Source: a virus. Taken from it: a DNA stretch of 64,000 nucleotides. The DNA is taken from positions 1-64,000 of the IMG/VR virus record IMGVR_UViG_3300021403_000004; one strand, written 5' to 3'. Shown here piece by piece: positions 713-58,237 of the stretch. How positions within the stretch are numbered: the stretch's first letter is position 1; every line of letters begins with the position of its first letter. The notes under the pieces are model-generated. The model worked only from the letters and a program-made list of their open reading frames with translations, did not search any database and was not told where the DNA came from. A program made the translations under genes and the position numbers.

Positions 713-1294
713 GTGACCGTTACCACTGTCATGACCAGCGCGCGGCAGCACGCCGCCCATGCCCGGGCCGAGCAGATCCGGCTGAACGTGCAGCGCGCTG
801 CCGTGCTGTACGTCCAGGCCATCGTGGAGAAGGACTGGCAGGCGCTCGGCTACGGCGGCGTGCCGGACTGGGCGGCAGGCGAGTTCGGGCCGGACCGGTT
901 TTCCGCCGAGCGCCGCCGGGAGATCGTCGCCTTGCTGACCCAGGCCGGCTACACCACCCGGCAGATCGCGGCGGCCACCGGGGCCGGGCACAGCACGGTG
1001 AACAAGGACCAGCGGGAGAACGGCCTGCTGGTGCCCAGCCCGACGGCCCGGCAGCAGGCTGCCCTGGACAGCAACGCGCTGCGCCGCCAGCAGGCCGCGG
1101 AGCTGGCCGAGCAGGAACGGCTGCTGGCCGGGCAGCTGCTGGCGCAGTGGGCCGATCGCGAGCTGCTGCTCCTGCGCTACATCCGGAACGCGGGGATGCC
1201 GCTGGCCGTGGTGGATGACCTGATCGCGCGGCTGGCCAGCTACCGTGACGCCCTGGCGCACGCCCGCCCCCGCGGCAAGGAGGAAGGCTCATGA
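713..1294 (+). CDS. HTH DNA-binding protein, paralogue of the next gene
   Basis: A 193-residue protein. Residues about 60-100 form a helix-turn-helix (LLTQAGYTTRQIAAATGAGH then STVNKD), of the type used by ParB-like and transposase-like regulators. A second conserved block near residues 140-175 (LAQWADRELLLLRYIRNAG) recurs in the downstream protein, so the two are paralogues. A good ribosome site (AAGGAG, 698-703) precedes the GTG start. Its TGA overlaps the next ATG (ATGA), so the pair is translationally coupled. Likely a phage regulator or partition/replication accessory protein; the operator is unknown. Confidence 0.7.
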   Translation: MTVTTVMTSARQHAAHARAEQIRLNVQRAAVLYVQAIVEKDWQALGYGGVPDWAAGEFGPDRFSAERRREIVALLTQAGYTTRQIAAATGAGHSTVNKDQRENGLLVPSPTARQQAALDSNALRRQQAAELAEQERLLAGQLLAQWADRELLLLRYIRNAGMPLAVVDDLIARLASYRDALAHARPRGKEEGS

Positions 1295-3201
1295 AGATGG
1301 CGCCACCAGCAGTGCGGCCAGCAGAGGGGCTGCGGCGCGCGGCAGCTGACCGGGCTGAGCAGATCCGGCTGGGGCTGCAGGGCACCGCGGTGCTGTACGC
1401 ACGGGCGGTGGCCGAGAACGACTGGCAGGCACTCGGCTATAAGGGCGTGCAGGCCTGGGCCGTCGCCGAGTTCGGCTTCGACCGGTTCTCCGCTGAGCGG
1501 CGGCGCGAGATCGTCGCCCTGCTCACGGATGCCGGCTACACGCAGCGCAAGATCGCGGCAGCCGTGAACGCGGGTCACGCCACCGTGCGGCGCGACCAGC
1601 AGGCCCTGGCTGGTGGGCCAGATGGCTCACAAGAACGCCCGAAGTTCACCAGCACTGACCACGACAGCACGGGCCTGACGGGGCCGCTGCCCGCCGTGAA
1701 CGCCCGCCAGCAGGCGGCCCGGGACCGGGAAGCCCGGCGCGAGCAGGAGCGCGTGTCAGCACTGCTGGCAGCGGAGCGCATCGTGGCGGACGGCTTCACA
1801 ATGCCTGCGCAGAGGCAAGAGAACTGCGACATGGAGGGCGGCGAGTACTACCCGTCCGTGCACCCGGCGGAGCAGGCCCGGCGCGAGCAGGAGCTGCTGC
1901 GCGCGGACGCTGCTGCGGTGCTGGATGACGAGGACGAGAGCCTGACCCCGGCTGTCCTCCCGCAGCCACGGCACGTGATCCCGGCGCGCCCGGCAGAGCA
2001 GTACGTCCCGGCCGCGGTGGACGCCTTGCGGCGCGGCCTGACGCAAGGCCAGTTCGGGCGCGAGGCAGGGCTGCCGGACAACAGCATGGTGCTGAGCAAG
2101 GCCTGGGGCGCGGCCGGCGAGCGGCTGCGGGCAGAAGCCGCCATCGCAGGCCAGCACGCGCCTGCTGCCGTGGAGGAGCTCGCTGGCTACCAGCAGGTGC
2201 TCGCGCAGTGGGCGGACTGGGAAGGCCGGCTGGTCGCGCACGTGCGGGATGCCGGGGTGCCCCTGGTGGTGCTGGATGACCTGATCCGGCGGCTGGCGGA
2301 GTTGCGGCGTGCACTGTTAGTTCTCTTGCAGGCCGTACCGTCTCATGATACGGTACGGCGCATGATAAGAATCGAGCAGGCAGCCCTCCATGAGAAGGCA
2401 GCCGAGCAGGATCGCGCGCAGGCTGAGACTGCATGGCGGCAGGCATGGTGGCAGACTACGCTAGCGCTAGGCGAGCCAGCAGATTCCGACCGGAAAAGTG
2501 TCTCAGCAGCGTACGACATCGCGGAGCGCATTCTCGGGCAGTCGCGAACCTGGTTGGCGACACGGCGCATGACAGGCAAAGCACTAAAAGATCTTGTGCT
2601 TGAGGACAAGATCTTTTCGCTTCCCACCCGCCTGGCTGTGCAGTACGTTCAGTCGAAAGCCGATCCAGCTCAAGCAGTAGCAGTTCTCCAGGACGCCGAA
2701 GCACGCGAGCTTTCCCTAAGGGACTTCGCAGCTGAGCTAGGCACGCAGCCGCAGTCCTGGCTGCGCGAGGATGAGCAGCACCAGCGTCCTGTTACGCCAG
2801 AGCAGATGCAGGCCAGGCCCGTAACCGAGCAGGCACGGGTGATCCAGCGGGCTCTCGGCAATCCCGAGGTAGCCAGGGCAGTCTTCCGGGACCAGGACTG
2901 CAAGGCCGGCGTCATGAGCGCACTCCGGCATGATGACCGGCAGGAAGGTTCCACGGCAACCCCGTCCGCACCATCGCCAGCTAAGCCCAGCCTGACTAGG
3001 CTCGACGTCCTCATCTTCCTGGCTGATGCTAAGGACGCGCTACGGCGGGCATCCCGGCTAAGCGTCTCCCTTGGCCTCGCAGGTGACGACGAGGTCTTGA
3101 GTGACCTCGGCGACGTAGAGACAGAGGCTGAGCAGTTCCGTCGCTACCTCACGGGCATGGGCCTGGATGAGGCCATTGCGAAGATCATGGAAGGAGCTTG
3201 A
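1291..3201 (+). CDS. long HTH protein with extra C-terminal domain and an embedded 30-bp element
   Basis: 636 residues. Residues 1-110 repeat the HTH module of the upstream gene (LLTDAGYTQRKIAAAVNAGH), and residues about 310-345 repeat its LAQWADWEG...LDDLIRRLAEL block. From about residue 350 to the end is a separate helical domain, faintly like DUF6192-type actinobacterial HTH proteins (inference); the DNA encoding it is less GC-biased, which suggests a fusion. Residues 171-180 (MPAQRQENCD) are encoded by a perfect copy of the dispersed 30-bp element, read through in frame. Starts at the ATGA overlap with the preceding gene. Confidence 0.7.
   Translation: MKMAPPAVRPAEGLRRAAADRAEQIRLGLQGTAVLYARAVAENDWQALGYKGVQAWAVAEFGFDRFSAERRREIVALLTDAGYTQRKIAAAVNAGHATVRRDQQALAGGPDGSQERPKFTSTDHDSTGLTGPLPAVNARQQAARDREARREQERVSALLAAERIVADGFTMPAQRQENCDMEGGEYYPSVHPAEQARREQELLRADAAAVLDDEDESLTPAVLPQPRHVIPARPAEQYVPAAVDALRRGLTQGQFGREAGLPDNSMVLSKAWGAAGERLRAEAAIAGQHAPAAVEELAGYQQVLAQWADWEGRLVAHVRDAGVPLVVLDDLIRRLAELRRALLVLLQAVPSHDTVRRMIRIEQAALHEKAAEQDRAQAETAWRQAWWQTTLALGEPADSDRKSVSAAYDIAERILGQSRTWLATRRMTGKALKDLVLEDKIFSLPTRLAVQYVQSKADPAQAVAVLQDAEARELSLRDFAAELGTQPQSWLREDEQHQRPVTPEQMQARPVTEQARVIQRALGNPEVARAVFRDQDCKAGVMSALRHDDRQEGSTATPSAPSPAKPSLTRLDVLIFLADAKDALRRASRLSVSLGLAGDDEVLSDLGDVETEAEQFRRYLTGMGLDEAIAKIMEGA
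1801..1830 (+). repeat. 30-bp dispersed element, copy 1 (inside a gene)
   Basis: Begins ATGCCTGCGCAGAGGCAA and ends GAGAACTGCGAC. TGCCT/AGGCA can form a hairpin around the palindrome CTGCGCAG. This copy is in frame within the 1291-3201 gene and adds ten residues without a stop. Confidence 0.9.
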
Positions 3202-5419: not shown

Positions 5420-5611
5420 TCATGATGTGGTAGCCGCGTCGCAGTTCTCTTGCCTCTGCGCAGGCATTGTCAGGACTCCGGAGAAGCCGAAAAAGAAACC
5501 GAGCAAGGCGCCTTCATCGATCGTGCGCCCCTTCTGGCTGGCAACCCATCCACCCAGGATGCCACATAGCGTAGCCGCCAGGATTGCGAGTCCCAGGAAC
5601 AGGCTAATCAT
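5420..5611 (-). CDS. small membrane protein with a tail replaced by the 30-bp element
   Basis: 63 residues. Two hydrophobic segments (SLFLGLAILAATLCGILGGW and LLGFFFGFSGVL) around a KGRTIDEGA loop match a common family of tiny actinobacterial membrane proteins with a KGRSxxxGFxLGxxxGxxGxI core. The expected hydrophobic C-terminus is absent; instead the frame enters a 30-bp element copy (MPAQRQENCD) and ends five residues later. The ATG overlaps the stop of the nuclease gene (AATGATTAG), so it is coupled to it. Confidence 0.6.
   Translation of the reverse strand: MISLFLGLAILAATLCGILGGWVASQKGRTIDEGALLGFFFGFSGVLTMPAQRQENCDAATTS
5438..5467 (-). repeat. 30-bp dispersed element, copy 2
   Basis: Perfect copy in minus orientation, encoding the last residues of the small membrane protein. 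With copy 3 (7428-7457), also minus, it forms direct repeats about 1.99 kb apart that bracket the nuclease gene. Confidence 0.9.
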
Positions 5612-7457
5612 TGGACTTTGGCTTCCGGATGATCGTCCCTGGGCAGCCAGGGCCGCCATCATAAGCTGACGTGGGCCGATAATACGGGCAGTTCCCCGTC
5701 ATCAGGTCATCAGCCAGGGCGAACGCCTCTGCGCCGTTAACCGTTGCGCAATACACCGGTTCAACCAGGCCAGTGGGCTCCACGGATACGACCTTCCAGT
5801 AACTTTCCCGCTCTGGCTGCTCGTTGGCAGTTTGTGCGTAAGCCTGGTGTGCGTCCTTCAAGAAGAACCATGCGGGGAGATCGCGCCGTTGAAGGCCGAT
5901 ACTGAAAAGATCCGTGGCCTCAGTGGCGTTAATGCCGATGCGCGCCTTCTTGGAGACCTGGCGGTAACCGATGCCGCACACGGCTGCAAGGTCGCGCACG
6001 AACAGCAAGTCCTCTTCCCGGGCTGATGATAGCGAGCACTGGCCGGCAGGGGTGACGTTCCCGTCTGCGGCAAAGTACCCGGCTAGCCAGCTCAGCAGGA
6101 AGGAGCGTGACTCACTCAGCGGTGGCAGCTCCTTCCAGAACCTGGGGAGCCCGTAAATGTGCTTCACGCCTTCATACTGCTTGAAGGCCGGGAAGAACCG
6201 GAGCATCACATCCTTGCCGTTGCTCGCGTCAAAAATGCACAGTGTTGCGGGTCGCTGGCCTTGCCCGATCGTGCCGTCACCAAAGGTGAAGCCCTGGGCC
6301 ACCGCGACGTCCATCATGTCCGGCATGCTGGCGGTACTGCGCCGCAGCGGCTGGAGCAAGTCTCCCGGCTGAAGCTCGGCAGTGACCTTGCGCCACTGGT
6401 GCCGGACGATTCTGGCGCCATTAGGCTGCCTGCGCGCCCGGTCCGTCACGAACCAGCCGTGCTCAGCCGTGGCCCTGATTTCCTTGCGCAGGCGCCGGTC
6501 TTCCAGCACGATGCGGTACGTTGGCTGCTGCCCGAAGTACCGCACAGGCGCTTCCTGGAAGCTGCCGGTGCGCATGCGGCTCCCGTCAGCGCTCAGCGTT
6601 GGCACGAGGAGCTCATGGGTGCCTGCTGCCAGCTGCGCAATGGGCCGGATCCCGTTCCGGGTGACGACTTCGGTTGACGCTCCAAGACATACGTAACATT
6701 CGTCATCATCAGGCGCAGCAGGCACTTGCATGAACGTCATGCGGCCAGCCGTGACTTCTGCCGCTATGAGCTTGCGGACGGCCGTGCGCTCCAGCATCCG
6801 GGCGACCAGCGCGTCGTCTTCCGGCGCGATCACGCGCTCCCAGACGTACATGCCATCCAGGGTGGCCGCCGTGCGCGGATAGGCAGCGAGCACCACGCGC
6901 TTTACCGGCAGGCCCAGCGCCCGGAAGCCCAGGCCGTACAGCAGTAGCTGGACCCGGTACTTCTGGGATGGGCCGCGATTCCTGATCTTGCTGAGGGACG
7001 TGGGACCCAAGCACTTGTGGTCGACGATACTGTGTTCGAAAGCATCATAGAGGTCCGCTGTCCCGGCATGGTCGGGGTGCGGGACGACCCGGGTCTCCGT
7101 TACCCAGCGCAGCATCCGCTCACGGGCGTTGTCGTCCAGGAAGGCTTGCGCCAGCCAGGCGTGAATCGCTGTCCCGACGATGCTCGGCCACGGGTCGAAG
7201 ACGTTGTTCGTCTTCTGCAGGCCCGCCAGCTTGCCGACAACCTGGCGGTCGCACTGCACTCCAAGCTCACTGGGACCCAGGTGCACTTGCTGGGAGCGCG
7301 GGGCCAGCGTGGCCTGCCGGGTGATGACGCCCTTCAGCTCACGGGCGTACCGTGACGCCCAGGCGGTGTTGCCGTCCAGTGCCCGGGGAGCTGTGGCCAT
7401 GAAGTCGGCCGGGGACATGGATATCATGTCGCAGTTCTCTTGCCTCTGCGCAGGCAT
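5604..7457 (-). CDS. RecB/Cas4-like PD-(D/E)XK nuclease interrupted by an intein
   Basis: 617 codons. Host protein: residues 1-256 and 590-617 (about 284 after splicing). It has a RecB/Cas4-type core with GTADLYD and IVDHK (metal-binding and catalytic motifs) and a conserved Cys early (SELGVQCDR). A terminal cysteine cluster is assembled only after splicing (ECYV joined to CPYY, then PGC), giving the C, CxxC, C pattern of 4Fe-4S nucleases. Such enzymes act as 5'-3' exonucleases in phage recombination. Residues 257-589 are the intein. The start codon and first ten residues come from a 30-bp element; an internal start (MISMSPADF, residue 11) is equally possible. Coupled to the small membrane gene downstream. 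Confidence 0.8.
   Translation of the reverse strand: MPAQRQENCDMISMSPADFMATAPRALDGNTAWASRYARELKGVITRQATLAPRSQQVHLGPSELGVQCDRQVVGKLAGLQKTNNVFDPWPSIVGTAIHAWLAQAFLDDNARERMLRWVTETRVVPHPDHAGTADLYDAFEHSIVDHKCLGPTSLSKIRNRGPSQKYRVQLLLYGLGFRALGLPVKRVVLAAYPRTAATLDGMYVWERVIAPEDDALVARMLERTAVRKLIAAEVTAGRMTFMQVPAAPDDDECYVCLGASTEVVTRNGIRPIAQLAAGTHELLVPTLSADGSRMRTGSFQEAPVRYFGQQPTYRIVLEDRRLRKEIRATAEHGWFVTDRARRQPNGARIVRHQWRKVTAELQPGDLLQPLRRSTASMPDMMDVAVAQGFTFGDGTIGQGQRPATLCIFDASNGKDVMLRFFPAFKQYEGVKHIYGLPRFWKELPPLSESRSFLLSWLAGYFAADGNVTPAGQCSLSSAREEDLLFVRDLAAVCGIGYRQVSKKARIGINATEATDLFSIGLQRRDLPAWFFLKDAHQAYAQTANEQPERESYWKVVSVEPTGLVEPVYCATVNGAEAFALADDLMTGNCPYYRPTSAYDGGPGCPGTIIRKPKSND
5691..6689 (-). mobile_element. 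intein with LAGLIDADG homing endonuclease (nuclease host)
   Basis: 333 residues from C257 (CLGASTEVVTRNG, block A) to N589 (ALADDLMTGN). Block B is TAEHGWFVT with its TxxH. Two LAGLIDADG helices are visible (VAQGFTFGDGTI and LLSWLAGYFAADG), so the endonuclease looks intact. The C-terminus ends TGN before Cys+1 rather than the usual HN. Insertion lies between the two Cys of a CxxC Fe-S ligand pair. Confidence 0.85.
7428..7457 (-). repeat. 30-bp dispersed element, copy 3 (supplies a start codon)
   Basis: Perfect minus-strand copy. Its ATG is the first possible start codon of the intein-containing nuclease. The following 7458-7570 holds no gene but has a minus-oriented TGGCTGGCT box at 7511-7519. 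Confidence 0.9.
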
Positions 7458-7570
7458 GAACGGTCACTGCTGGCGGGTGCTGGCTGCCTGGAGTTCATTG
7501 ACTGCATCATAGTGGCTGGCTGTCCTAGGCTGACGGCAGGATCGTGTCAATAACTGCGCGAGAAGGCAGA

Positions 7571-9189: not shown

Positions 9190-10125
9190 ATGACAGGCGC
9201 CGTCTTGCACTGGGCAGCCTTCAGCCTCGCCGTAACTGGGTGGGCAATGCTGCTCGTGACATGCGCGAGGACGCGGAAGACCAGGAAGGAAAAGGCTCCC
9301 ATGAGCCAGCCACTGAGCTCGCCTGCGTGCCCGGGGAGTACCAGCCCCGGGTGCCTGTGCGACGGCAGTTGCGCACGAGGACCGCGGGGCTTGTGCGGGT
9401 GCGCCCGGTGCGGGCTGCCGCCGGGAAGCAAAAGCTTCGGGAGCTTCAGTTCCGGGAGCTTCGGCTTCGGGAGCAGCAGCATGTCCCGCTGGACGGCCCG
9501 CAGCGGCATCATCATGCCTGCCCGGCCTGCGCACGCGGGCATTGCCGGGTTCGACGGGTCAAGGCCCGGTGACTACGCGCTTGCCATCGGCAGCGTGCGC
9601 GGGCTGCGGCAGTGGAGCTTCCCGGCAGCAGGGGCGCTGGACCGCGCGCTGGCGGCTGGCGCCGAGCCGAGTGCGCGAGCCATCTGGCCTGTTCCGGAGC
9701 CCTTGCTGCTGACGGGAGTCCGCGATCATCCCTGGCGGCCCGGGGTCAACGAGGCCGCGTGCCGCAATAACACGGCCCACGAGCCGCCCGTGGAAGCAGA
9801 TCCGGATACCGGGCTGGCCTGCGGCTGCGGCTTCTGGGCGTACTGGGGCTTGGATGACCATGCCTGGGACATCAAGCTGCCGGTCTTCGGCGTGGTGGAG
9901 GGCACCGGCCGGGTCGTCACCGGCACGAAGGGCTTCCGCTGCCAGAAGGCCCGCATCCTCGCGCTCACCTTGGGGTTCACCGTGGAGGACGGCCCGGAGA
10001 AGATGGCGGATGCATGGCTGGGCGTGCTGATGGACATGATCGGCCAGGCGTATCCTGATGCCCGGGTCTTTGCCACCCTCAACGGCATGCTCGCCTCCGT
10101 GCCGACAGGGGAGTTCACCACGTGA
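9190..10125 (+). CDS. conserved phage protein with Cys-rich and Gly/Ser-rich leader
   Basis: 311 residues if started at 9190. Residues 1-30 contain a membrane-like segment (VLHWAAFSLAVTGWAMLLVT). Residues 38-75 are Cys-rich (CLCDGSCARGPRGLCGCARC). A Ser/Phe/Gly linker follows, and then the main domain from about residue 115, with GFDGSRPGDYALAIGSVRGL, CGCGFWAYWGL, PVFGVVEGTG and KARILAL. This last domain is a recurrent actinophage protein of unknown role. The ATG at 9301 has a better ribosome site (AAGGAAAAGG) and would remove the membrane segment; the choice is open. Confidence 0.6.
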   Translation: MTGAVLHWAAFSLAVTGWAMLLVTCARTRKTRKEKAPMSQPLSSPACPGSTSPGCLCDGSCARGPRGLCGCARCGLPPGSKSFGSFSSGSFGFGSSSMSRWTARSGIIMPARPAHAGIAGFDGSRPGDYALAIGSVRGLRQWSFPAAGALDRALAAGAEPSARAIWPVPEPLLLTGVRDHPWRPGVNEAACRNNTAHEPPVEADPDTGLACGCGFWAYWGLDDHAWDIKLPVFGVVEGTGRVVTGTKGFRCQKARILALTLGFTVEDGPEKMADAWLGVLMDMIGQAYPDARVFATLNGMLASVPTGEFTT

Positions 10126-10206
10126 ATGCGGCCCGCGCAGGGGCAATGGAACTGCGACACCACGTGAACAGTGAATGCTGCCCGCAGGGGCGAGAGGACT
10201 GTGACA
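10126..10206 (+). repeat. two degenerate tandem copies of the 30-bp element
   Basis: 10126-10157 and 10175-10206 resemble the 30-bp element (GCGCAGGGGCAATGGAACTG and CCGCAGGGGCGAGAGGACTG), each followed by ACACCACGTGAA. The same CACCACGTGAA occurs at the end of the upstream gene, so the stretch is a tandem duplication of about 50 bp between two genes. Confidence 0.6.
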
Positions 10207-10210
10207 CCAC

Positions 10211-10426
10211 GTGAAGATCCAGCTGAGCCACGGAGCAGGTGACGGCGGGGTCCAGGTGGACTGGTTCGTCGTGCGGCCGTTGCCCGGTGAGGTGACCAGG
10301 AGCGCCGTCGGCACCGTGATCACCAACGAGATGACCGTGCAGTCCCTGGCGCAGGCCGGGCGCACGGTGATTGAGCTGGACGTCAGGCCGTGGGCCAATA
10401 AAGCTCCACGTAACCAGGAGGGATGA
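10211..10426 (+). CDS. 71-residue hypothetical protein
   Basis: GTG start immediately after the degenerate element pair. Beta-rich sequence (VQVDWFVVRPLPGEVTRSAV) with no recognised family. The stop (10424-10426) is 6 nt before the next ATG, within the plus-strand operon. Confidence 0.55.
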   Translation: MKIQLSHGAGDGGVQVDWFVVRPLPGEVTRSAVGTVITNEMTVQSLAQAGRTVIELDVRPWANKAPRNQEG

Positions 10427-37189: not shown

Positions 37190-37850
37190 GTGACCACTAG
37201 CCAGCCAACCACGCCATGCCGCCGTGAACCCGCAGCCAATGACCGTTAGCCAGCCAACGACGCCATGCCGCCACTCAGTGTCAGCCAGCCAACGTACCGG
37301 TGCCGGCAGCCAAGGAGCAACTAGCCAGTCATGAACCCGCAGCCAGGGGGCGTTAGCCAGCCAGGACAAAAATGCAGCCCTTGAACGTGTGCCAGCCATC
37401 GGGATCATGAGCTAGCCCGCAGTAAACGCGCAGCCATGGAACGCCTGCCTGCCATGATGATGATGATGATGATGATGATGCACATGACCACCAGTCAGCC
37501 ACACTAGACGAGCAGCCATCGGACGCTTGCCAGCCATCATGATGATGCACACGACCTGCAGCCAGGGGGCATTAGCCAGCCACGGTACATCAGCCCTGAG
37601 TGACGGTCAGCCAACGATGCGGAGCCGCAGCCAGGATATACGAGCCAGCCATCATCCCGCAGCCAGGGCATGCAGCCATACGACCTGAGCCAGCCAGCGT
37701 GCCGGTGTCCTGCAGCCACGGGTTTACAGCCAGCCAAGGTACGCGTGCCCCGCGCGGCCAGCAGAACTCAGCCAACCATGCAGCCAAGACGAAGTGGCCA
37801 GCCAGCAGCCTCCTGGCACGCGCGGCGAAGTAGCCAGCCCGTGCCCCGAT
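37190..37850 (+). repeat. AGCC-box array, long
   Basis: The 37179-37888 gap has no gene. It carries many AGCC / AGCCAGCC boxes separated by about 10 nt, plus a (GAT)n microsatellite at about 37453-37480. It ends before the TATACT motif at 37855. Confidence 0.8.
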
Positions 37851-37854
37851 GAGT

Positions 37855-37869
37855 TATACTGCATCAGAC
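37855..37869 (+). promoter_or_regulatory. start-associated motif TATACTGCATCAGAC
   Basis: 20 nt before the ATG at 37889, with AAAGGAC in between. Confidence 0.5.
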
Positions 37870-37888
37870 ACCAAGAAAGGACGAGGCC

Positions 37889-38137
37889 ATGACAACGCGA
37901 TGGCCTGACGGCTTCAAGCCCCAGTACTGGTCGGGTGACCGCTGGGTGCAGGAGGAGCGCGCCACGCTGCCCGGTGGCATCACGGCGGCGGAACTGCCGG
38001 CGTTCCTGGCAAGCGAGGGCATCCCGGGCACCGCGGAGCTCACTGCCATCACGGAATACGACGAGGACGGCCCCGTCGTGCAGCTCCGGTGGCTCACCGG
38101 CGTCCCGGAAGAGAAGGCAGGAGGGGACAGGGCATGA
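37889..38137 (+). CDS. 82-residue hypothetical protein
   Basis: MTTRWPDGFKPQYWSGDRWV at the start, acidic and beta-rich. Unrecognised. Its TGA overlaps the next ATG, starting a three-gene coupled operon. Confidence 0.55.
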   Translation: MTTRWPDGFKPQYWSGDRWVQEERATLPGGITAAELPAFLASEGIPGTAELTAITEYDEDGPVVQLRWLTGVPEEKAGGDRA

Positions 38138-38352
38138 TCGTCCACCGTGGCCTGAAGCACGTAAGCGCCACCGGCTCCACGCTCGGGTTCTCGCTAGAGG
38201 ACAACCTGCACGTGCGCCTGGAAGGCAAGGAAGTCCAGCGGGTGCTTGACGAGATCGCCTGGTCCGCACCGGAACTGCTGCACATGGCCCTGGAGCGGCG
38301 CCAGGTCCGGCTCATCACTGAGGCAGTCAGGAACGAGGAGGGCGCGGCATGA
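38134..38352 (+). CDS. 72-residue hypothetical protein
   Basis: ATGA overlaps on both sides. Reads MIVHRGLKHVSATGSTLGFS and ELLHMALERRQVRLITEAVR. No family recognised. Confidence 0.55.
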   Translation: MIVHRGLKHVSATGSTLGFSLEDNLHVRLEGKEVQRVLDEIAWSAPELLHMALERRQVRLITEAVRNEEGAA

Positions 38353-39281
38353 CGCACTTCATCGTGCTGGCCTGCCTGGAAGACCCTGGCCAGCTGAGCG
38401 AGATGCTCGCGCCGTACGACGAGAACAGGGAAGCAGCGCCATACCGCAGCTATGAAGACGGCCTGCCCGAGGAGCACTGGGCCGTGAAGAGCCTGCGCGC
38501 TGAGGGCAAGCTCCCAGACGGCCCGCTGACCTGGCAGCAGGTCGCGGACGCGGTCAATGTCGCGTACTGCCAGGGTGCCGACGATGAAGGCGACCATCTG
38601 TTCCTTGATGAGGACACCGACCGGGCCTACATGATGTCCACGCGCAACCAGCAGTCCAAGTGGGACTGGTACACCGTCGGCGGCCGGTGGGGCGGTTCCC
38701 TGCGCTACAAGCCCGGGCACGCTGGCGAAGTCCTGATGCCAGAGCAGTCGTGGAGCTCACCGGAGAAGTTCCCGTTCTTCGGCTGCGATGGCGGCCCCAA
38801 GCGCGCGCTGGACCTGGAGAAGGTGCGCCAGGATGCGGAAGACGAGGCCAGGACGCTGTACCGCGAGTACCAGGGCCTGGTGGCAGGACTGCCAGAAGCG
38901 GTCCCGTTCAGCGTCTTCGCCGGCATGGTCAGCGAGGGCAGCGGCTACACCATCGAGCGCGCGCGGCAGGAGTACCACAGCCAGCTGCGGGTGGCACGAC
39001 TCAATGCGGAGGGCAGCCCGTTCCGGTGGTCCAGCAAGGACGTGCTGGAGGTGTTCTCCGTCAGCGAGGACGAGCACGCACGGCGGCAGCGGGACCAGGC
39101 CGTGCCCGGCTACGCGCTGCTCACGACCGACGGCGAGTGGATGGCGCCAGGCACGATGGGCTGGTTCGGCATGAGTGACGACGGCCCGGACGACCGGGCT
39201 GCCTACCTGCGCGCGGCCAACGCCTACGTGGACAGCCTGCCCGATGACGCGTGGCTGGTCGTGGTGGACTGCCACATCTAG
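38349..39281 (+). CDS. conserved phage protein (WDWYTVGGRWGG family)
   Basis: 310 residues. The block QQSKWDWYTVGGRWGG (about residues 100-115) is a well-known feature of otherwise uncharacterised phage proteins. The acidic N-terminus and a C-terminal WLVVVDCHI complete it. Coupled by ATGA to the preceding gene. Confidence 0.65.
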   Translation: MTHFIVLACLEDPGQLSEMLAPYDENREAAPYRSYEDGLPEEHWAVKSLRAEGKLPDGPLTWQQVADAVNVAYCQGADDEGDHLFLDEDTDRAYMMSTRNQQSKWDWYTVGGRWGGSLRYKPGHAGEVLMPEQSWSSPEKFPFFGCDGGPKRALDLEKVRQDAEDEARTLYREYQGLVAGLPEAVPFSVFAGMVSEGSGYTIERARQEYHSQLRVARLNAEGSPFRWSSKDVLEVFSVSEDEHARRQRDQAVPGYALLTTDGEWMAPGTMGWFGMSDDGPDDRAAYLRAANAYVDSLPDDAWLVVVDCHI

Positions 39282-39289
39282 CCAGCAGG

Positions 39290-39530
39290 AGAACGTGCCG
39301 CCATGACCGTGAAGCCAGCCCCCATGATGCTGAAACCAGTCATCATCCCGCAGCCAGAGCATATGAGCCAGCCAAGATCGCGCAGCCAGATCCGTTCAGC
39401 CAGCCACGATAGGCGAGCATCCTGCAACACGGCCAGTCCATGGGAGCCAGCCGAGATAGTCCAGCCCGCAACGCAGCCAGAGCACGCGAGCCAGCCACTA
39501 TGCCACAGCCCGACGGCTACAGCCAGCCCC
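39290..39530 (+). repeat. AGCC-box array
   Basis: Non-coding; AGCCAGCC doublets alternating with single AGCC boxes and ending at the 30-bp element. Confidence 0.75.
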
Positions 39531-39536
39531 ACTTCA

Positions 39537-39566
39537 ATGCCTGCGCAGAGGCAAGAGAACTGCGAC
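39537..39566 (+). repeat. 30-bp dispersed element, copy 5
   Basis: Perfect plus-strand copy, outside any gene. With copy 6 (40755-40784), in the same orientation, it brackets the whole RNA island. Confidence 0.9.
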
Positions 39567-39590
39567 CCGCTACCATCATGACCAGCCCCC

Positions 39591-39705
39591 GCCAGCCGGG
39601 GCTTACAACCTTTCTCCCCGGTTACAACAGCCCGCCTGCTTCGGGCGTGAGACCGTGCATGGCGCTTCACGCGGAAGGCGAGATCTGGCGGGGGCTCTCC
39701 CGGGC
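39591..39705 (+). ncRNA. structured RNA, type B, copy 1
   Basis: GGTTACAACAGCCCGCCTGC (39620-39639) and GCGGAAGGCGAGATC (from 39671) match the element at 40282-40405. Inner helices GCGTGA/TCACGC and GCCT/AGGC are supported by compensatory differences with the other copy. No ORF. Confidence 0.5.
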
Positions 39706-39734
39706 GCAGGCCCTGCAGTCACTGACATCCAATG

Positions 39735-39895
39735 GACTTGAGCCAGCCAGGGTAGATGTGCAGCCTCAACACCTGAGCCAGCCAATGGAGTACAGTCAAC
39801 GCACCTGAGCCAGCCAGTGAAGTACAGCCATGGCAGGTCAGCCAGCCAAGGTAAATGTGCAGCCAGAGCATGCTAGCCAGCCGAGGCCAAGATGC
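39735..39895 (+). repeat. AGCC-box array
   Basis: About 160 bp of AGCC/AGCCAGCC boxes between the first type B element and the first tRNA-shaped element. Confidence 0.75.
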
Positions 39896-39925
39896 AGCCT
39901 CACGATAACTGAATAAGGAGAACAA

Positions 39926-40089
39926 GGGCAGGCCAGGAATTGTCCGGCGTTCGGGGAGCGGAATCACACAGCAACATTCATGTGATCCTCGCCGCTCCTG
40001 TCACCGGGCAGGCAAGGCGCACGCCAGGGAAGGGCCTTACACTACAATCTCTTCCCGTGCCTTCAGGAGTTCGATCCTCCTGCTGTCCA
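39926..40089 (+). ncRNA. tRNA-shaped structured RNA, copy 1
   Basis: Closed by GGGCAG with CTGTCC. A long arm takes the D-arm place (TGTCCGG 39941-39947 with CCGGGCA 40004-40010; GGAGCGG 39955-39961 with CCGCTCC 39992-39998). A second arm has AAGGC/GCCTT and GGGAAG/CTTCCC. Then a canonical T-arm, AGGAG TTCGATC CTCCT. Preceded by ACTGAATAAG. Confidence 0.6.
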
Positions 40090-40116
40090 CGCAAGACAAC
40101 TGAATAAGGGGAACAA

Positions 40117-40281
40117 GGGCAGGCCAGGAATTGCCCGGCGTTCGGGGAGCAGGCTTATTGGAGAAATCCAGTCTCAGCTCTCTGCTCCTGTCACCGGGCA
40201 GGCAAGGCGCACGCCAGGGAAGGCTTCTAATTAGCAGGATGCTTTTCCGTGCCTTCAGGAGTTCGACTCTCCTGCTGCCCA
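40117..40281 (+). ncRNA. tRNA-shaped structured RNA, copy 2
   Basis: Same plan as copy 1. The inner helix changes to GGAGCAG/CTGCTCC (compensatory) and the closing pair becomes GGGCAG/CTGCCC. T-arm AGGAG TTCGACT CTCCT. The apical loop carries a TGGA-GAAA-TCCA hairpin. Confidence 0.6.
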
Positions 40282-40405
40282 CGAGGCCCTCGCCGGCCGG
40301 ACCTCCACGGTTAGGCAACTGCCGGTTACAATAGCCGCCTGCATCGGGTGCGTCAACTGACATGCACGAGCGCACGGAAGGCGGATACGGCGAGGGCGCT
40401 CACCA
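40282..40405 (+). ncRNA. structured RNA, type B, copy 2
   Basis: CCCTCGCC (40287-40294) pairs with GGCGAGGG (40390-40397). CCGCCT/AGGCGG and GTGCG/CGCAC lie within. GGTTACAATAGCCGCCTGC matches copy 1. Followed by ACTGAATAAG. Confidence 0.5.
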
Positions 40406-40481
40406 CTGAATAAGCACGTGCCGCCAGAAGACCTCGGCCAGCCAGCGGGATCGTGAAGCATAAACTGAATAAAAGAAACAA

Positions 40482-40631
40482 GGGCAGGCCAGGAATTGCC
40501 CGGCGCTCGGGGAGCGGAGAAATGTGTACTTCACGCTTCACCACCGCTCCTGTCACCGGGCAGGCACGGCGCATGGCAGAGAAGACCCTTTTTCTTCTCG
40601 CGCTTCGGAAGTTCAAGTCTCCCGCTGCCCA
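40482..40631 (+). ncRNA. tRNA-shaped structured RNA, copy 3
   Basis: Shorter (150 nt). Keeps TGCCCGG/CCGGGCA and GGAGCGG/CCGCTCC, and has a perfect GAGAAGA/TCTTCTC arm with a 7-nt loop. T-arm is imperfect (GGAAG TTCAAGT CTCCC). Closing GGGCAG/CTGCCC kept. Confidence 0.55.
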
Positions 40632-40639
40632 CGCGCGAC

Positions 40640-40870
40640 AACGTCATCCAGCCGCCAGCGCTCTTAAGCCCGCCAAAGTAGACCTGCAGCCAGCAGATCC
40701 CAGCCATCGGACCCCAGCCAGCCATCGTTCTCCAGCCAGCGCTTGGCCTTGGCAATGCCTGCGCAGAGGCAAGAGAACTGCGACAGCCAGCGCATGTGAA
40801 TCCGCCAAGATCGCACAGCCAGATAACCTCAGCCAGCCATCGTTCTTCAGCCAATGAACCCGGGCCAGCC
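40640..40870 (+). repeat. AGCC-box array
   Basis: Non-coding; contains the plus-strand 30-bp element at 40755-40784. Confidence 0.7.
40755..40784 (+). repeat. 30-bp dispersed element, copy 6
   Basis: Perfect plus-strand copy, direct repeat of copy 5. Confidence 0.9.
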
Positions 40871-40889
40871 AAGGGAAAGGACAGTACCC

Positions 40890-41432
40890 ATGACAACGAA
40901 GGTAAAGGCCGAAGCCGCTAACGACCGCGCCCGCCGGCTATGGGACGGGGACGCGCACAGCACGGCGCAGGCGCTGCTCAAGGAGCTGATGGACGACCCG
41001 TCGCCCCAGGAGGCCATCCTGGTGCTGCTGCCGTGGATCACCGACCGGGTCCGGGCGGCCATTCGCACCGACGTGCGGGCAGCGGAGGAGAGCGCCTTCA
41101 CTAACCCGTCCGGCCGGCCCGACCGGGTCGCCCAGCACATCCGCTCGCAATCGGGCGCGCTGCCCGCGCTGGACAACCTGGAGATGCTGCTGTCGCTGCC
41201 GGTCCTGGTGCCCGTCGCGGGCAGCGTGACGCAGTCAGTCCTGTGGAAGGACATGACCATCGCGGATCACCAAGCCAGAATCGGCATGATCAGCAAGCCC
41301 CTGGCCGCCATTAACGCGGCCATAAGCCGCCATCGGTGGTCTATCGCCGAGATAAAGAAGCACAAGGTGGAGTGCCTCGGGCAGATTGACCTCGCCGTGC
41401 TCCGGGCTGAGATGCTCAGCTCCCGGGCGTAA
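40890..41432 (+). CDS. 180-residue hypothetical phage protein
   Basis: Start at 40890 after AAAGGAC; an upstream in-frame start (40854) lies in the repeat array. Helical, acidic (ALLKELMDDPSPQEAILVLL, RRLWDGDAHS). No family recognised. Confidence 0.6.
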   Translation: MTTKVKAEAANDRARRLWDGDAHSTAQALLKELMDDPSPQEAILVLLPWITDRVRAAIRTDVRAAEESAFTNPSGRPDRVAQHIRSQSGALPALDNLEMLLSLPVLVPVAGSVTQSVLWKDMTIADHQARIGMISKPLAAINAAISRHRWSIAEIKKHKVECLGQIDLAVLRAEMLSSRA

Positions 41433-41434
41433 TA

Positions 41435-41880
41435 CCGCCGCAGAACCTCAGCCAGCTATCGCAGGACAGCGAACTTGCCGCCAAGAGACCCTAGCCAGCC
41501 CTGGTTCCCCAGCCGGGAGCTTTTGCAGCCAAGCTACTACAGCCAGCCAACGACCTGCAGCCAAACTACCAGAGCCAGCCAAGGTACCGCAGCCTAGGGA
41601 GATCAGCCAGCCACTGAAGGCCTGCAGCCAAACTACCGGAGCCAGCCAATGCCGTGCAGCCAAGCTACTGGAGCCAGCCAACGATCTTCAGCCAACCTAC
41701 CGGAGTCAGCCAAGGACCTGCAGCCGATGATCATCAGCCAAGCTACTACAGCCAGCCAACGACCTGCAGCCAAGGATCGACAGCCAGCCAATGTTCTTGT
41801 GCAGCCATGTACTGACAGCCAGCCACGGAGCCGGTGGCACATGCAGCCAAGGTTTGTGGGCCAGCCAAAGAAGAACAGAA
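41435..41880 (+). repeat. AGCC-box array, best-ordered copy
   Basis: From 41527 to 41822 nearly every AGCC is followed by exactly 10 nt before the next AGCC, with single and doublet boxes alternating (AGCC-N10-AGCCAGCC-N10), a 32-nt unit repeated about nine times. Spacer sequences also recur (AAGCTACTAC, AACGACCTGC). No ORF. Confidence 0.9.
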
Positions 41881-41896
41881 GGGAAAACAAAAGAAA

Positions 41897-42793
41897 ATGA
41901 ATAAGGAGTACTGGCAGCTTCGCACTGCCGGGCGGAATTACTACGACGCCTACCGGCTCACCACCCGGATCGGCAACCGGCTGCGCGCGCTTGCCCGGGC
42001 CGGCGAGGCCTATGACATCGACCTTCATGCGCAGCTGGAAGCGGCGACTGCCATGAAGGACACCAGCGGGCGCATCCTCGTCCGCGTCTACAAGAACATC
42101 GGCCCCCTGAAGGTCCGGGAATTCCAGAAGGCCACCCTGGGCATCGGCGAGGTGTGGATGGCCCGGCTGATCGGGGAAGTGGGCGACTTCGTCACCTACA
42201 CCGAGGCGTGGTGGGAAACCCCGGATGACGCGCGCGGCCCGCTGGCCTCCGATGACTTCGATGACGACGACGATGAGCTCGGTGAAGAGGACGAGGACGA
42301 AGCGCCCCGGCCCAAGCGGGTGCTGGCAATCGGCGACGTGCGCTCCATGGGCGTCCGCGAGCTGTGGGCGTACTGCGGGCACGGTGACGCCGAGCGGCGC
42401 CGGCGCCGCAACCAGACGCAGGAGGAGGCCCTGGCTTCCGGGAACCCGGCCGCGAAGATGATCGTGCACCAGATGGCCGAGTTCGCGCTGCGCTCCAACG
42501 GGGCACCGGACAAGAACGGCAAGGCCCGCGGGCAGACCCCGTACTACCCGTGCTACGTGCGGGCCCGGGCGCACGCAGAAGAGCTGCACCCCGACTGGAA
42601 GGCCGGCCACGTCTACAAGCACGCGGTGCGGATAGTCGGCAAGGCCATCCTCAAGGACCTGTGGCGCGTCCAGCACGGCTACGAGCCCATCTACGGCGCG
42701 CACCAGGATGACTGGGTGCCGCGCCGCCCCCTGGTGCAGCCTGAGCGCACGGCACGAGCCGCCGTCCCGGGGCGCGCACCCGCTGGCGTGTAA
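41897..42793 (+). CDS. conserved phage protein with acidic linker
   Basis: 298 residues from ATG 41897. N-terminal helices (YDAYRLTTRIGNRLRALARA), VREFQKATLGIGEVWMARLI, then an acidic linker (SDDFDDDDDELGEEDEDEA), then a basic helical domain with HPDWKAGHVYKHAVRIVGKA. Unrecognised; may bind nucleic acid or a capsid component. Ends before the 43053 terminator. Confidence 0.6.
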   Translation: MNKEYWQLRTAGRNYYDAYRLTTRIGNRLRALARAGEAYDIDLHAQLEAATAMKDTSGRILVRVYKNIGPLKVREFQKATLGIGEVWMARLIGEVGDFVTYTEAWWETPDDARGPLASDDFDDDDDELGEEDEDEAPRPKRVLAIGDVRSMGVRELWAYCGHGDAERRRRRNQTQEEALASGNPAAKMIVHQMAEFALRSNGAPDKNGKARGQTPYYPCYVRARAHAEELHPDWKAGHVYKHAVRIVGKAILKDLWRVQHGYEPIYGAHQDDWVPRRPLVQPERTARAAVPGRAPAGV

Positions 42794-42804
42794 AGCTCGC
42801 CACC

Positions 42805-43035
42805 GTTCTTCAGCCAGGATCCTGGAGCCAGCCAAGGTAAACGAGCAGCCAGAGAACAACAGCCAGCCCGCGAACTCGTGCAGCCATTGAAGACCAGCCA
42901 GCGTATTCGTGCAGCCATCCCCGCCCGAGCCAGCCATGGGCCGTGTGAACATGCAGCCACGCAACCAAAGAACAACAACCAGCCATTGACCATGTGACGG
43001 CTCTTAATAATCCACGCATGAGCAGCCAGCCCATC
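42805..43035 (+). repeat. AGCC-box array
   Basis: Non-coding gap between the 41897 gene and the terminator. Confidence 0.75.
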
Positions 43036-49204: not shown

Positions 49205-49335
49205 CTTTGCAGCCATTGATCCAAGGCCAGCCAACACGATCGTGCCGCCAGGGACATGTCGCAGTTCTCTTGCCTCTGCGCGCAGGCGAAGCCAGCCATG
49301 CCTGTTCAGCCGTTGACCCAGGGCCAGCCATTGTG
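49205..49335 (+). repeat. AGCC-box array with variant 30-bp element
   Basis: Includes the minus-strand element variant 49258-49287, which differs from consensus by a CG insertion in the central palindrome. Confidence 0.75.
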
Positions 49336-50261: not shown

Positions 50262-50309
50262 GTGCCCTCCTTCTTGCTGTATGCTGCAGTATAACGGCCG
50301 CAGGTAGCC

Positions 50310-50515
50310 AGTCAAAGAAACAGCAGCCCAGGGACGCGAGTCAGCCAAGGACCAGCAGCCCGAGATCGCTTGCGCGCCAAGGACCAGCAGCCCGAGATCG
50401 CTTGCCCGCCAAGGACCAGCAGCCCGAGATCGCTTGCCCGCCAAGGACCAGCAGCCGAACCAGATGAGCCAGCCAGAAGACGGCAGCCACCGCCGGTCAG
50501 CCAGCCGAAGACTCC
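50310..50515 (+). repeat. AGCC array grading into exact 32-bp tandem repeats
   Basis: GCCAAGGACCAGCAGCCCGA then GATCGCTTGCCC occurs three to four times in tandem (about 50344-50456) with a period of 32 bp. Confidence 0.85.
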
Positions 50516-50529
50516 CTGACCGTCATGGC

Positions 50530-50640
50530 TCACCGGCCGCGGGGGCAGCCCGACTTCACGTTGTCCACCGGCACGAGGGCCGGGCAGTTCTGCGTCGTCA
50601 GCACGCCCCGCGTTAGCCCGGTCCTTACCTTGATGACCAT
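50530..50640 (-). CDS. 36-residue peptide
   Basis: MVIKVRTGLTRGVLTTQNCP and a short Cys-containing tail, after GGGGAAGAGTGAGG. Small, but with a proper ribosome site; no family. Confidence 0.4.
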   Translation of the reverse strand: MVIKVRTGLTRGVLTTQNCPALVPVDNVKSGCPRGR

Positions 50641-50684
50641 CACGCCTCACTCTTCCCCGTTCCGTAAAACGACCAGCCATGAGA

Positions 50685-50835
50685 CACGTGCCAGCCTCAG
50701 CGGCCCTGCAGCCAAGCGACTACAGCCAGCCACCCCATGCGTGCCGCCCTATCCGCTCAGCCAGCCAGCGTAGATGTGCCTTATGCCTCCCCTTCCTGCT
50801 GCCACAGATCGACAGCCAGCCAGCGTAGGCGTGCC
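50685..50835 (+). repeat. AGCC-box array
   Basis: Non-coding gap between the 36-residue peptide and the connector gene. Confidence 0.7.
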
Positions 50836-51774
50836 TCATACTCCCACCGAGCGCTTCGTGTTCTTGAAGGGCCGCAGCAGCTCTATCAGCCAGGGGTTGG
50901 CCTGGATGCGCGTGACGCCGTAATCGGAGACCCCCGCCACGCCGAAGGGCGCGTCCTTTGACTTGAACAAGTCCGCGGCCAGGATGAAGGACGCTTGCGT
51001 CACCGAGGCCGGGACCTGGCTCCAGCCCCAGGTCCCGGCGATCTGCACCCGGTCCAGGTGCGCGAACGGGTAGATGAAGGGGAACAGCTTCCCAGACTGC
51101 ACGGTGTAGGCCTGCCGGTACGGCCGCAAGATGCCCGTCGCGTTCAGGTTATAGCTGTCAGGCCCGATCCGGAGCTGGTAATCAGTGCCCTGCACCCAGG
51201 CCTCCTCGAAAGTGCCGTCACCATCGCGGTCCACGTTGAGCGCGGTCAGCGAGACCAGCGGGTCGATGTTGACCTTCACCAGCTCATGCGGCACGAAGGT
51301 GCGCACTTCGGTGATCCGGGTGAAGTGCTGGCCGCACCACTGGTTCACCCAGTCGCACACGGTCTGGATGGCGATCTGGGCCTGCGAGTCGTCGTCGCTG
51401 TCGGTGATGCCCAGCCGGTCCTTGAACTCCTCCAGGCCGATGTACCAGGTGCCGACCGCCGTCGGCAGCACCCGCCAGGTGCCCGGCTGGATGTCCGATA
51501 CCGCCCCGGTGCCGATCCAGACGAACGACCACAGGCCGTCAATGCCCGTGATGGCCGGCGAGCACGGCACGGGCAGCGTGTAGCTCCCGGCGGAATTGCG
51601 GACGACGTCCGCGGGAGCCGAGCCGTTGTAGGTGTGCGTGACGGACGTGCCAGACGGGTCAGTCACCACGCAGCTGACCGTGGTCGGGTCTGCCGCGACC
51701 TGGGAGCTGTTCAGGAAGACGTTGCCCAGCTCGGCTATCTCCGATGGTGACTCGTAGAAGACCGTTGCGGTCAT
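50836..51774 (-). CDS. head-tail connector-like protein with Ig-like start
   Basis: 312 residues. The N-terminal 110 residues look like a bacterial Ig-like beta domain. The rest reads GLEEFKDRLGITDSDDDSQA then QTVCDWVNQWCGQHF and SFILAADLFKSKDAPFGVAG, as in gp6-like connector proteins. Domain fusion is uncommon. Confidence 0.65.
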   Translation of the reverse strand: MTATVFYESPSEIAELGNVFLNSSQVAADPTTVSCVVTDPSGTSVTHTYNGSAPADVVRNSAGSYTLPVPCSPAITGIDGLWSFVWIGTGAVSDIQPGTWRVLPTAVGTWYIGLEEFKDRLGITDSDDDSQAQIAIQTVCDWVNQWCGQHFTRITEVRTFVPHELVKVNIDPLVSLTALNVDRDGDGTFEEAWVQGTDYQLRIGPDSYNLNATGILRPYRQAYTVQSGKLFPFIYPFAHLDRVQIAGTWGWSQVPASVTQASFILAADLFKSKDAPFGVAGVSDYGVTRIQANPWLIELLRPFKNTKRSVGV

Positions 51775-51871: not shown

Positions 51872-53746
51872 TCACGTCACCGTGGCGCGCATGCTCGCCA
51901 GCTCCGTCACGGCGGTGTCAATGCTGTGGCCGCCCACGACCGGGCCGGTCACTCCCGGTGCCGGGGCAGTGCCCGTGCCTGCCGCCAGCCCTGCCGCTGC
52001 CGTCACGTTGCTGGAGCTGGCCACGGACGGCGGCTGCGCCGTCCCGTTCCCGGTGCCCGCCCCTGCAGCGGCCACGGTCACGGCAACGGGCGCCTGGGCA
52101 GTGCCTGCAGCAGCGGCCAGCCCTGCGGCGGCCGTCACGGACGGCACCGTGGTGACCACGGCGTTCCAAGCCGTCCCGGCGCCCGGGGGCAGCCCGGCAA
52201 TGACAGTAACCTGCGCTGCTGGCGGCTGGGAAGCACCGGCCCCGGCTGCCAGCCCGGTACCGGCCACGACTTGCGCGGCAGGCGGCTGCGCGGTCCCGGC
52301 ACCGGGCGCCCGCCCTGCGCTCGCGGTCACGGCCGCAGCTGGCGGCTGCGCAGTTCCTGCTCCTGGTGCCCGCCCGGGGCCGGCCGCGATGACGGCGCCT
52401 GGCGGCTGCGCGGTTCCCGTCCCGGCAGCCAGGCCCGCGCTGGCAGTCACGCTGGCCACGGGCGGCTGGGCAGTGCCCGTTCCGGCAGCCAGGCCCGCGC
52501 TGATGACCGCCGGGGTCACTTCAAGGTCAGCCCAGTAGTTTTGCGTGCTGCCGGCCGTCGGGGTGGTGACCAGCGCCACCAGGTAGGGGTAGACGTCAGG
52601 CGGGCCCTGGGTGAAGGTGCCCTGCCCGGCCAGCGTCGTGCCATCGCTGAACGCAGGCGTCCCGCCGGCATTGCCGTTGTAGTTGTAGGCCAGTGACGCG
52701 GCAGACAGCTGCGGCGCCGAGATGGGGCCGTTGGTGACGCCGCTGGCGCCGATGCCGTTGCGCCAGTAATCGGTCTGCGCGTCCTTGGCGAAGCACGCGG
52801 CCGGCGAGGCAGCGCCGTTGTACACGCCGGCCTTGTACTTGCCCGCAGGGAGGGTCGCGCTCAGCGTGCACGAGATCCACCCGGACGCCGCGGCGCCCGA
52901 CCACGACGGCGCCGCGTTCGTGGCGGCCAGGGTGCCCGTCAGGCCGCCGCCGGTGATGCTCCAGATGTTCGCCGCGGTCGCCAGCTGCGTCGCGCCTGAT
53001 GGTGAGTAGTACCAGAGCTTGCTGACCACGCACGCCTGCGACAGCGCGATCTCGGTGGCGACCTCGTAATTGTCCGGGGCATCGGAGACGATCGACGGGT
53101 TCGGCGGCCCGGTGTTCGGCCACAGCCGGTACGTCCCCGCGTACCCGGCAGGGGCCGTGTCGGAGACGCTGGCGTCCATCCAGAAGTTGCCGTTGTTGCT
53201 GCCCGTGAAAGGCATGTTCACGGTCGCGTCCGTGCCTGCCGTGGAGAAAACGCCCTGCGGGTTGCCGAACGGGTCCGGCGCGGAAAAGCCCTGGTCCGAG
53301 AACGCGAACAGGGGCCCGCTGGTGATGCCCGATGTGTGGCCGCCGGAGCCGTACGAGTCAGCCGCGCCCGTGCCCGCGCCGGTCGTGTCGGAATCGCTGA
53401 AGCCGTGCAAGGTGACCGCAGCCCAGCCGGTGCACGCGTTGTACGTGCTGCCGATCGACAGCTGAATGGGCGTGCTGAGGGCGACGAAGTTCCACTGCCC
53501 GGCCGTCAGCGTCCCGGACGTGACCGTCGCAGCGGGCAGCAGCGTCCCGGTGCCGGCGCCGTCGACGTGCCACAGCGCGAACTTCCGCGCCGTCACGTCC
53601 TCGCCGGTGGCCACCCACTTCCAGTAGCCGGTGAACCACATGCCGCCCTGGGTCACCCGGAACAGGACGCCCACCAGGATGTTGCCGGTGTAGGGCACCG
53701 GCGAGGACGGGCCGTTAGTGGCCGGGAACAGCCGGTACGTCGTCAT
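51872..53746 (-). CDS. DUF4082-type structural protein with 20-residue repeats
   Basis: 624 residues. Tandem beta modules, including YEVATEIALSQACVVSKLWY and GKYKAGVYNGAASPAACFAK (DUF4082). The C-terminal 220 residues are imperfect 20-residue repeats (GLAAGTGTAQPPVASVTAS) identical in style to those of the next protein. Probably a surface fibre or decoration protein. Confidence 0.65.
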   Translation of the reverse strand: MTTYRLFPATNGPSSPVPYTGNILVGVLFRVTQGGMWFTGYWKWVATGEDVTARKFALWHVDGAGTGTLLPAATVTSGTLTAGQWNFVALSTPIQLSIGSTYNACTGWAAVTLHGFSDSDTTGAGTGAADSYGSGGHTSGITSGPLFAFSDQGFSAPDPFGNPQGVFSTAGTDATVNMPFTGSNNGNFWMDASVSDTAPAGYAGTYRLWPNTGPPNPSIVSDAPDNYEVATEIALSQACVVSKLWYYSPSGATQLATAANIWSITGGGLTGTLAATNAAPSWSGAAASGWISCTLSATLPAGKYKAGVYNGAASPAACFAKDAQTDYWRNGIGASGVTNGPISAPQLSAASLAYNYNGNAGGTPAFSDGTTLAGQGTFTQGPPDVYPYLVALVTTPTAGSTQNYWADLEVTPAVISAGLAAGTGTAQPPVASVTASAGLAAGTGTAQPPGAVIAAGPGRAPGAGTAQPPAAAVTASAGRAPGAGTAQPPAAQVVAGTGLAAGAGASQPPAAQVTVIAGLPPGAGTAWNAVVTTVPSVTAAAGLAAAAGTAQAPVAVTVAAAGAGTGNGTAQPPSVASSSNVTAAAGLAAGTGTAPAPGVTGPVVGGHSIDTAVTELASMRATVT

Positions 53747-57655: not shown

Positions 57656-58237
57656 TCAGTTCTCGCCGTAGACCCGCATCTGGGTCAGCGTCGTGCTGTT
57701 GGCGGCGTTGGAGGCAGACCAGGTCCCGAACAATTCCAGGAACAGGCTGATCTCGTTGTTCACGCCCGTCAGGTTGTTGGAGAACATCAGCGACTGGGGC
57801 GCCGTCGACCACACGGACGTGGCCACGACGGCCACCCGGATCTCGCCGTTGGCCTGCAGCGTGGTGCCCAGGTTGCCAACTGCCTGGCAGGTGACGTCGC
57901 AGTCGATGGACCACGGGAAGACGGTGGTGATCGCCGGGGTCAGCGTGGCGGACGTGAACAGCGTCGCGCCGCCAGTGCCCGCGATCGTCCCGGCCGCGGC
58001 GTCCAGGCCGGCGGCGTAGACGAACGTGGCCGTGCCCGCCACCGACGTGATGGTGCCCTCAGCCTTGAGGTGCAGGGCCTTGCCCGGGTAGGTGAAGTAG
58101 CCGGCCGGGATCAGGCAGCGCGGGATGGATGATGACGCGATGGCCGAGATAGGCGCCTGCGTAGTGTACGTGTTCTTGGTGACCGAGGCAGGAAGGGAGT
58201 ACAGCAGTTCCCCCTGGGTCATGGTATAACCGCTCAA
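57656..58237 (-). CDS. virion decoration or minor structural protein
   Basis: 193 residues, TTG after AAAAGGAG (ATG at 58222 possible). Beta-sandwich composition (GTITSVAGTATFVYAAGLDA, FPWSIDCDVTCQAVGN). Between fibre genes; no specific family. Confidence 0.6.
   Translation of the reverse strand: MSGYTMTQGELLYSLPASVTKNTYTTQAPISAIASSSIPRCLIPAGYFTYPGKALHLKAEGTITSVAGTATFVYAAGLDAAAGTIAGTGGATLFTSATLTPAITTVFPWSIDCDVTCQAVGNLGTTLQANGEIRVAVVATSVWSTAPQSLMFSNNLTGVNNEISLFLELFGTWSASNAANSTTLTQMRVYGEN

Follow-up and report, generated by a model that had tools for sequence, protein, structure and literature searches.

The window, that is, the whole 64,000-base stretch that was analysed, spans positions 1-64000 of virus record G000, which is 106,870 bases long, and contains eight clear copies of a short repeat, which lie in or beside genes for a small membrane protein and a Cas4-like exonuclease, inside a further open reading frame (ORF), at a gene junction and in intergenic tracts (Table 1). 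An IMG/VR search with the exact core of the repeat identified two more assemblies of this phage, one of which (G001, 122,432 bases) is 100% identical to G000 wherever the two were compared and continues past the left edge of the window. Five more clear copies and two decayed ones were located in G001, bringing the clear solitary copies to 13, all of which are sense to the upstream gene (13/13, with gene directions taken from a home-made gene caller).

Table 1 Solitary repeat copies and the features that adjoin them (window coordinates unless G001 is given)
Feature	Position	Strand	Context
Solitary repeat	1795-1830	+	In frame inside ORF 1291-3201; abutting TTC at 1795-1797
Solitary repeat, 35/36 nt	5438-5473	-	3' end of small membrane-protein ORF 5662-5420
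Solitary repeat	7428-7463	-	Upstream of the start codons of the Cas4-like exonuclease; abutting TTC at 7458-7460
TTC and two diverged repeats (10123-10158, 10172-10205)	10114-10215	+	At a would-be GTGA stop/start overlap
ACCACGTGAA, three copies	10117-10126, 10159-10168, 10206-10215		Separating and flanking the pair at 10114-10215
Solitary repeat	39531-39566	+	Intergenic; TTC at 39533-39535
Solitary repeat, 35/36 nt	40749-40784	+	Intergenic; AGCCAGCGC at 40734-40742 and 40785-40793
Solitary repeat, variant	49258-49295	-	Intergenic; exact over the last 24 nt; CG inserted in the hairpin loop
Five clear copies	G001: 58182, 65628, 66901, 70366, 73280		
Two decayed copies	G001: 83756 and 76274		The latter inside the Cas12-type gene

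The preliminary description of this DNA had reported a 30-bp element, ATGCCTGCGCAGAGGCAAGAGAACTGCGAC, in five perfect copies, and these were found where it placed them, at 1801 (+), 5438 (-), 7428 (-), 39537 (+) and 40755 (+). Not one of 100 dinucleotide-preserving shuffles gave an exact match, ruling out chance or low sequence complexity as the origin of the 30-mer. The three variants that it listed are real too, namely the one at 49258 on the minus strand and the tandem pair at 10123 and 10172, which is diverged but clear (41 and 36 bits). The size of the unit had been underestimated, since the full unit comprises 36 nt and the genuine 30-mer covers nt 7-36 of it.

Several other repeated sequences were observed in the same genome. 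Mostly non-coding tracts at 37200-43000 and 50300-50850 of the window are full of AGCCAGCCA-type repeats of ~32 nt, a 59-nt repeat has three copies at 39901, 40092 and 40457, and 60-bp tandem repeats run inside large minus-strand ORFs at 51950-55220. In G001, five small genes within 3.5 kb (68358-71855, in L018) have nearly identical DNA encoding the peptide RKLTMAEL at or near their C-termini.

The origin of the 36-nt unit became apparent ~22 kb outside the left edge of the window, where G001 carries an array of 22 near-identical direct repeats of CTGGCAATGCCTGCGCAGAGGCAAGAGAACTGCGAC, one of them with a single change, regularly spaced by spacers of 35-39 nt that are all distinct except for one identical pair. 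The element is thus nt 7-36 of the CRISPR repeat of the phage itself and its dispersed copies are solitary repeats, an identification that is nearly certain. The 13 clear isolated copies match the phage's own array repeat. The array directly follows a 528-aa gene of TnpB/Cas12 grade, whose product was matched by the Pfam Cas12f1-like TNB model (5.7e-15) and the PADLOC Cas12f model (2e-20), while a match to the NCBIfam guided_TnpB model fell under that model's cut-off. Cas12f and TnpB are the best models for this protein; the solved Cas12m4 was matched only at E=0.025. Gene and array make up a compact type V-like CRISPR system, consisting of a TnpB/Cas12-type effector and the 22-repeat array, that is carried by the phage.

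The gene and array are flanked by a helicase-like gene on one side and the DNA polymerase on the other. Phage phiAsp2 of Actinoplanes, with a polymerase of 41% identity, has a helicase, a single small gene and the polymerase in succession, with neither effector gene nor array between them, so that gene and array look like an added cassette in the present phage. Cas1 (PF01867) is absent from both records, in which positive controls were detected; a missing cas1 is common in minimal and phage-borne CRISPR systems. As a search of the phage for Y1 transposase, Cas1, reverse transcriptase and Ku found none, any uptake of spacers would depend on other machinery, unless it has ceased. No significant tracrRNA anti-repeat was found in the interval between effector gene and array. 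The decayed copy at G001 76274 (L011 2270-2305) lies in frame within the Cas12-type gene, directly after the first RuvC motif, and reads LPAQGHANGA against MPAQGQENCD. The RuvC-II glutamate of the effector aligns to glycine in a stretch where the alignment is not firm, and the protein may therefore bind without cutting, as in Cas12m; a Cas12m with D-E-D likewise does not cut (PMC11013384).

Comparison of the solitary copies with the array repeat revealed 95% conservation over nt 8-36, 99% over nt 30-36 and 59% over nt 1-7; conservation ends exactly at the repeat/spacer boundary and fades across nt 1-7. The 36-nt scaffold of Cas12m2 folds into a pseudoknot except for its initial 7 nt, which are disordered (PMC10442227). 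The TGCCT/AGGCA hairpin of the preliminary description was recovered, though it is not the sole symmetry of the element as had been stated, given that CGCAG can also pair with CTGCG, and a possible H-type pseudoknot like that of Cas12m2 would combine GCCU/AGGC with CGCAG/CUGCG. Covariation among the copies was no higher than in shuffles and was dropped as proof of structure, so the fold rests on analogy; an Rfam search returned nothing. Most changes among the copies fall outside the scaffold part or in the putative loop. Two sequence forms can be distinguished, one with AGAGG as in the present array and one with AGGGG (58182, 65628, 66901, 73280, 10123 and 10172). The AGGGG copies at 58182 and 65628 (6182 and 13628 in L018) share the 15 nt upstream, CGCGCCAGGTTCAGG, and differ downstream, as though a single leader or array had been their source. 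These two, like 10123 and 10172, are not fully independent of each other.

It had been proposed that the element writes protein ends. The frame encoding MPAQRQENCD does lie in frame inside ORF 1291-3201 and does form the end of the small membrane-protein ORF 5662-5420, and the in-frame copies at 1795, 5438, 65628 and 66901 all use the frame MPAQ(R/G)QE(N/D)CD. Most solitary copies, however, are non-coding and occupy leaders or the gaps between genes, and their sequence is that of the array repeat. The general claim was therefore abandoned, and the effects on coding sequence appear incidental to the sites at which repeats happened to insert. The element was also said to provide the first possible start codon of a split nuclease; it does lie upstream with an ATG, which is only one possible start among several, because two homologues are annotated as starting ~5 and ~22 residues further into the frame that begins there. 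The nuclease itself is a Cas4-like exonuclease (phrog_1674, E=6e-56; window 7457-5604, minus strand) and its apparent split is an interruption, between ...CYVC and CPYYRPT..., by a probable LAGLIDADG-containing intein that has weak matches to Pfam intein and LAGLIDADG models, both below the cut-offs.

The copies behave as inserted sequence rather than as a conserved protein motif, occurring in unrelated genes and at intergenic sites, some with flanking duplications; confinement to homologous coding places with no sign of insertion was not what was found. All clear copies end exactly at the 3' (guide-side) edge, the 5' edge being ragged, and native sequence that differs from copy to copy follows downstream, except that its first 10 nt are common to both members of the tandem pair. 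The order at 10123 is TTC, ACCACGTGAA, unit, ACCACGTGAA, unit, ACCACGTGAAGATCC, and the outer flanks, when joined, read GAGTTCACCACGTGAAGATCC, with the overlap of upstream stop and downstream start restored as GTGA. At 66901 it is TTC, AGCGTGACC, unit, ACCGTGACC, and the frame stays open when the flanks are joined. ACGGTTTCG stands on either side of the repeat at 58182, as does AGCCAGCGC at 40749, but the tract around 40749 is rich in that motif. The direct duplications at 10123, 40749 and 58182 measure 9-10 nt and are each expected in ~0.3% of control pairs; the 9-nt duplication at 66901 is weaker (p ~0.025). A paralogous gene (713-1294) was considered as an empty-site control and proved uninformative, the region around the insert missing from it as a larger block.

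Six of 12 copies have TTC at the breakpoint, or five if 49258 with its ambiguous 5' edge is set aside, against a background of ~1% per position. Among 20,000 random sets, TTC reached six in none and five in one; the trinucleotide was picked post hoc, and the best of all 64 trinucleotides reaches at least six in ~1% of random sets. The known PAM of Cas12m2 is TTN. Four clear copies (5438, 65628, 70366 and 73280) have neither a breakpoint TTC nor a duplication.

These marks suggest, as the favoured reading and at a probability of roughly 0.4, that repeats were inserted between a PAM-like TTC and a protospacer, probably via recombination with a matching array; TTC would be the PAM, and the sequence 3' of each solitary repeat would have been the protospacer. 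A matching array, located in this phage, a relative or a host, would supply the repeat-spacer unit against which the protospacer is repaired or recombined, with homology beginning at the spacer and copying going back through the repeat to halt at a variable point. Joining of the copied end to the PAM side would yield TTC, 0-10 nt of flank, the repeat and the flank again; break or fork repair would be an alternative route to the same copying. With PAM and protospacer no longer adjacent, the site would escape recognition by the effector, as spacers inside an array do. Since the units are sense and keep the scaffold, those with an intact scaffold could also make crRNA against repeat-less alleles in related phages. 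Besides the post hoc choice of TTC, the four clear copies that lack both marks and the failure to find a relative without inserts or an array with matching spacers, other considerations count against this mechanism: the effector possibly does not cut, which makes break repair initiated by it less plausible, a point mutation in the PAM would be a simpler escape, and the sense-only orientation needs an extra reason. A more ambitious form, which appears unlikely, holds that the repeat moves into PAM-flanked sites of its own genome, hiding the site and at the same time making the gene sequence a guide against repeat-less competitors. If it were true, CRISPR memory would be stored within genes rather than in an array, and TnpB-style flank guides and CRISPR arrays would be functionally linked.

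Relatives, hosts and targets were sought in several collections. The element had no exact match in GTDB contigs, no host array with this repeat was found, and three degenerate IMG/VR matches to the repeat were judged to be chance. Protein searches with three phage genes recovered only the same phage, and relatives of the effector were lacking in IMG/VR, GTDB contigs and GenBank phages, with only distant TnpB proteins in plasmids. For the array spacers, phages and the phage's own genome gave no match and plasmids only weak partial ones; two of the spacers, searched against IMG/VR, matched only this phage. Used as guides, the flanks had no own-genome target beyond chance and none that was convincing in phages or plasmids. 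The collections searched thus yielded no related phage, and so none without the inserts that would show empty sites, no array with matching spacers and no host.

A somewhat unlikely alternative to the insertion of repeats at PAM-like sites regards the copies as retained because they are functional embedded RNA sites, in which the Cas12-like protein of the phage binds or processes sense repeats in phage mRNAs, resulting in crRNAs that use the flank as a guide and silence rivals, or in regulation of the carrier mRNA. The uniformly sense orientation, the 95% conservation of the scaffold part with changes mostly outside it or in the putative loop, and the processing of pre-crRNA within the repeat by Cas12m proteins (PMC11013384) are all in keeping with this idea. 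It does not predict the TTC and duplicated flanks, however, and the shuffle-level covariation and the want of own-genome targets beyond chance for flanks as guides also speak against it.

The duplications, the ragged 5' edge and the two generations of sequence would also suit a small non-autonomous mobile repeat spreading or homing by RNA-guided action, for which TnpB provides the same layout of target-adjacent motif, element and flank-derived guide, here TTC, element, guide. This explanation is improbable: Y1 transposase (PF01797) is absent from both records, with controls detected, no reverse transcriptase was found, terminal inverted repeats were not seen, and the effector may not cut. Non-autonomous IS200/IS605 members may lack a Y1 transposase.

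Viral solitary repeat units act as RNA anti-CRISPRs (Racr) for types I-F and I-C (PMC10651486), and the present copies could by that precedent give rise to decoy RNAs that block a type V system of the host sharing this repeat. Such a role is very unlikely, as decoys would poison the phage's own effector and array with that repeat, the copies are many and lie partly inside genes, and a host array with this repeat was not found in GTDB contigs. A repeated peptide, suggested by the single frame used by the four in-frame copies, or an ordinary phage regulatory repeat unrelated to CRISPR, of which start-associated sequences are an example, is refuted for practical purposes by the Cas12-type gene and its adjoining 22 regularly spaced repeats, with spacers of 35-39 nt, and is opposed by the non-coding position of most solitary copies.

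If insertion at PAM-like sites is true, genomes may escape CRISPR through a repeat copied into the target, or guides may arise from flanks as in TnpB, and surveys that mask coding sequence, including the published search for solitary repeat units (SRUs), would miss such copies.

Rickettsia palindromic elements are short structured repeats of ~100-150 bp found in frame in unrelated genes and have no CRISPR link; the phage repeat resembles them in its in-frame insertion into unrelated genes, and is shorter and linked to CRISPR. TnpB guide RNAs of IS200/IS605 elements share with it a target-adjacent motif, a scaffold and a flank as guide, whereas the phage has a ~30-nt scaffold, a true spacer array and no TnpA that could be found. 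The type V-M Cas12m systems (PMC10442227, PMC11013384) are similar in having a compact effector beside an array, a 36-nt repeat ending in GAC, a possible pseudoknot scaffold, a T-rich PAM-like motif and a RuvC site that is probably altered; different from Cas12m, the 528-aa effector matches Cas12f/TnpB models better and is phage-borne with dispersed solitary repeats. Viral SRUs and Racr (PMC10651486; reviewed in PMC11656645) are likewise single CRISPR repeats outside arrays in a virus, so far read mainly as host-mimicking inhibitors. They are defined by having no associated cas genes and by inhibiting host Cas proteins, whereas this genome has its own cas gene and array. What sets this phage apart is the occurrence of solitary repeats in numbers, with at least 13 copies, several of them coding, beside the phage's own array and effector, and with TTC and duplications marking insertion at PAM-like sites.
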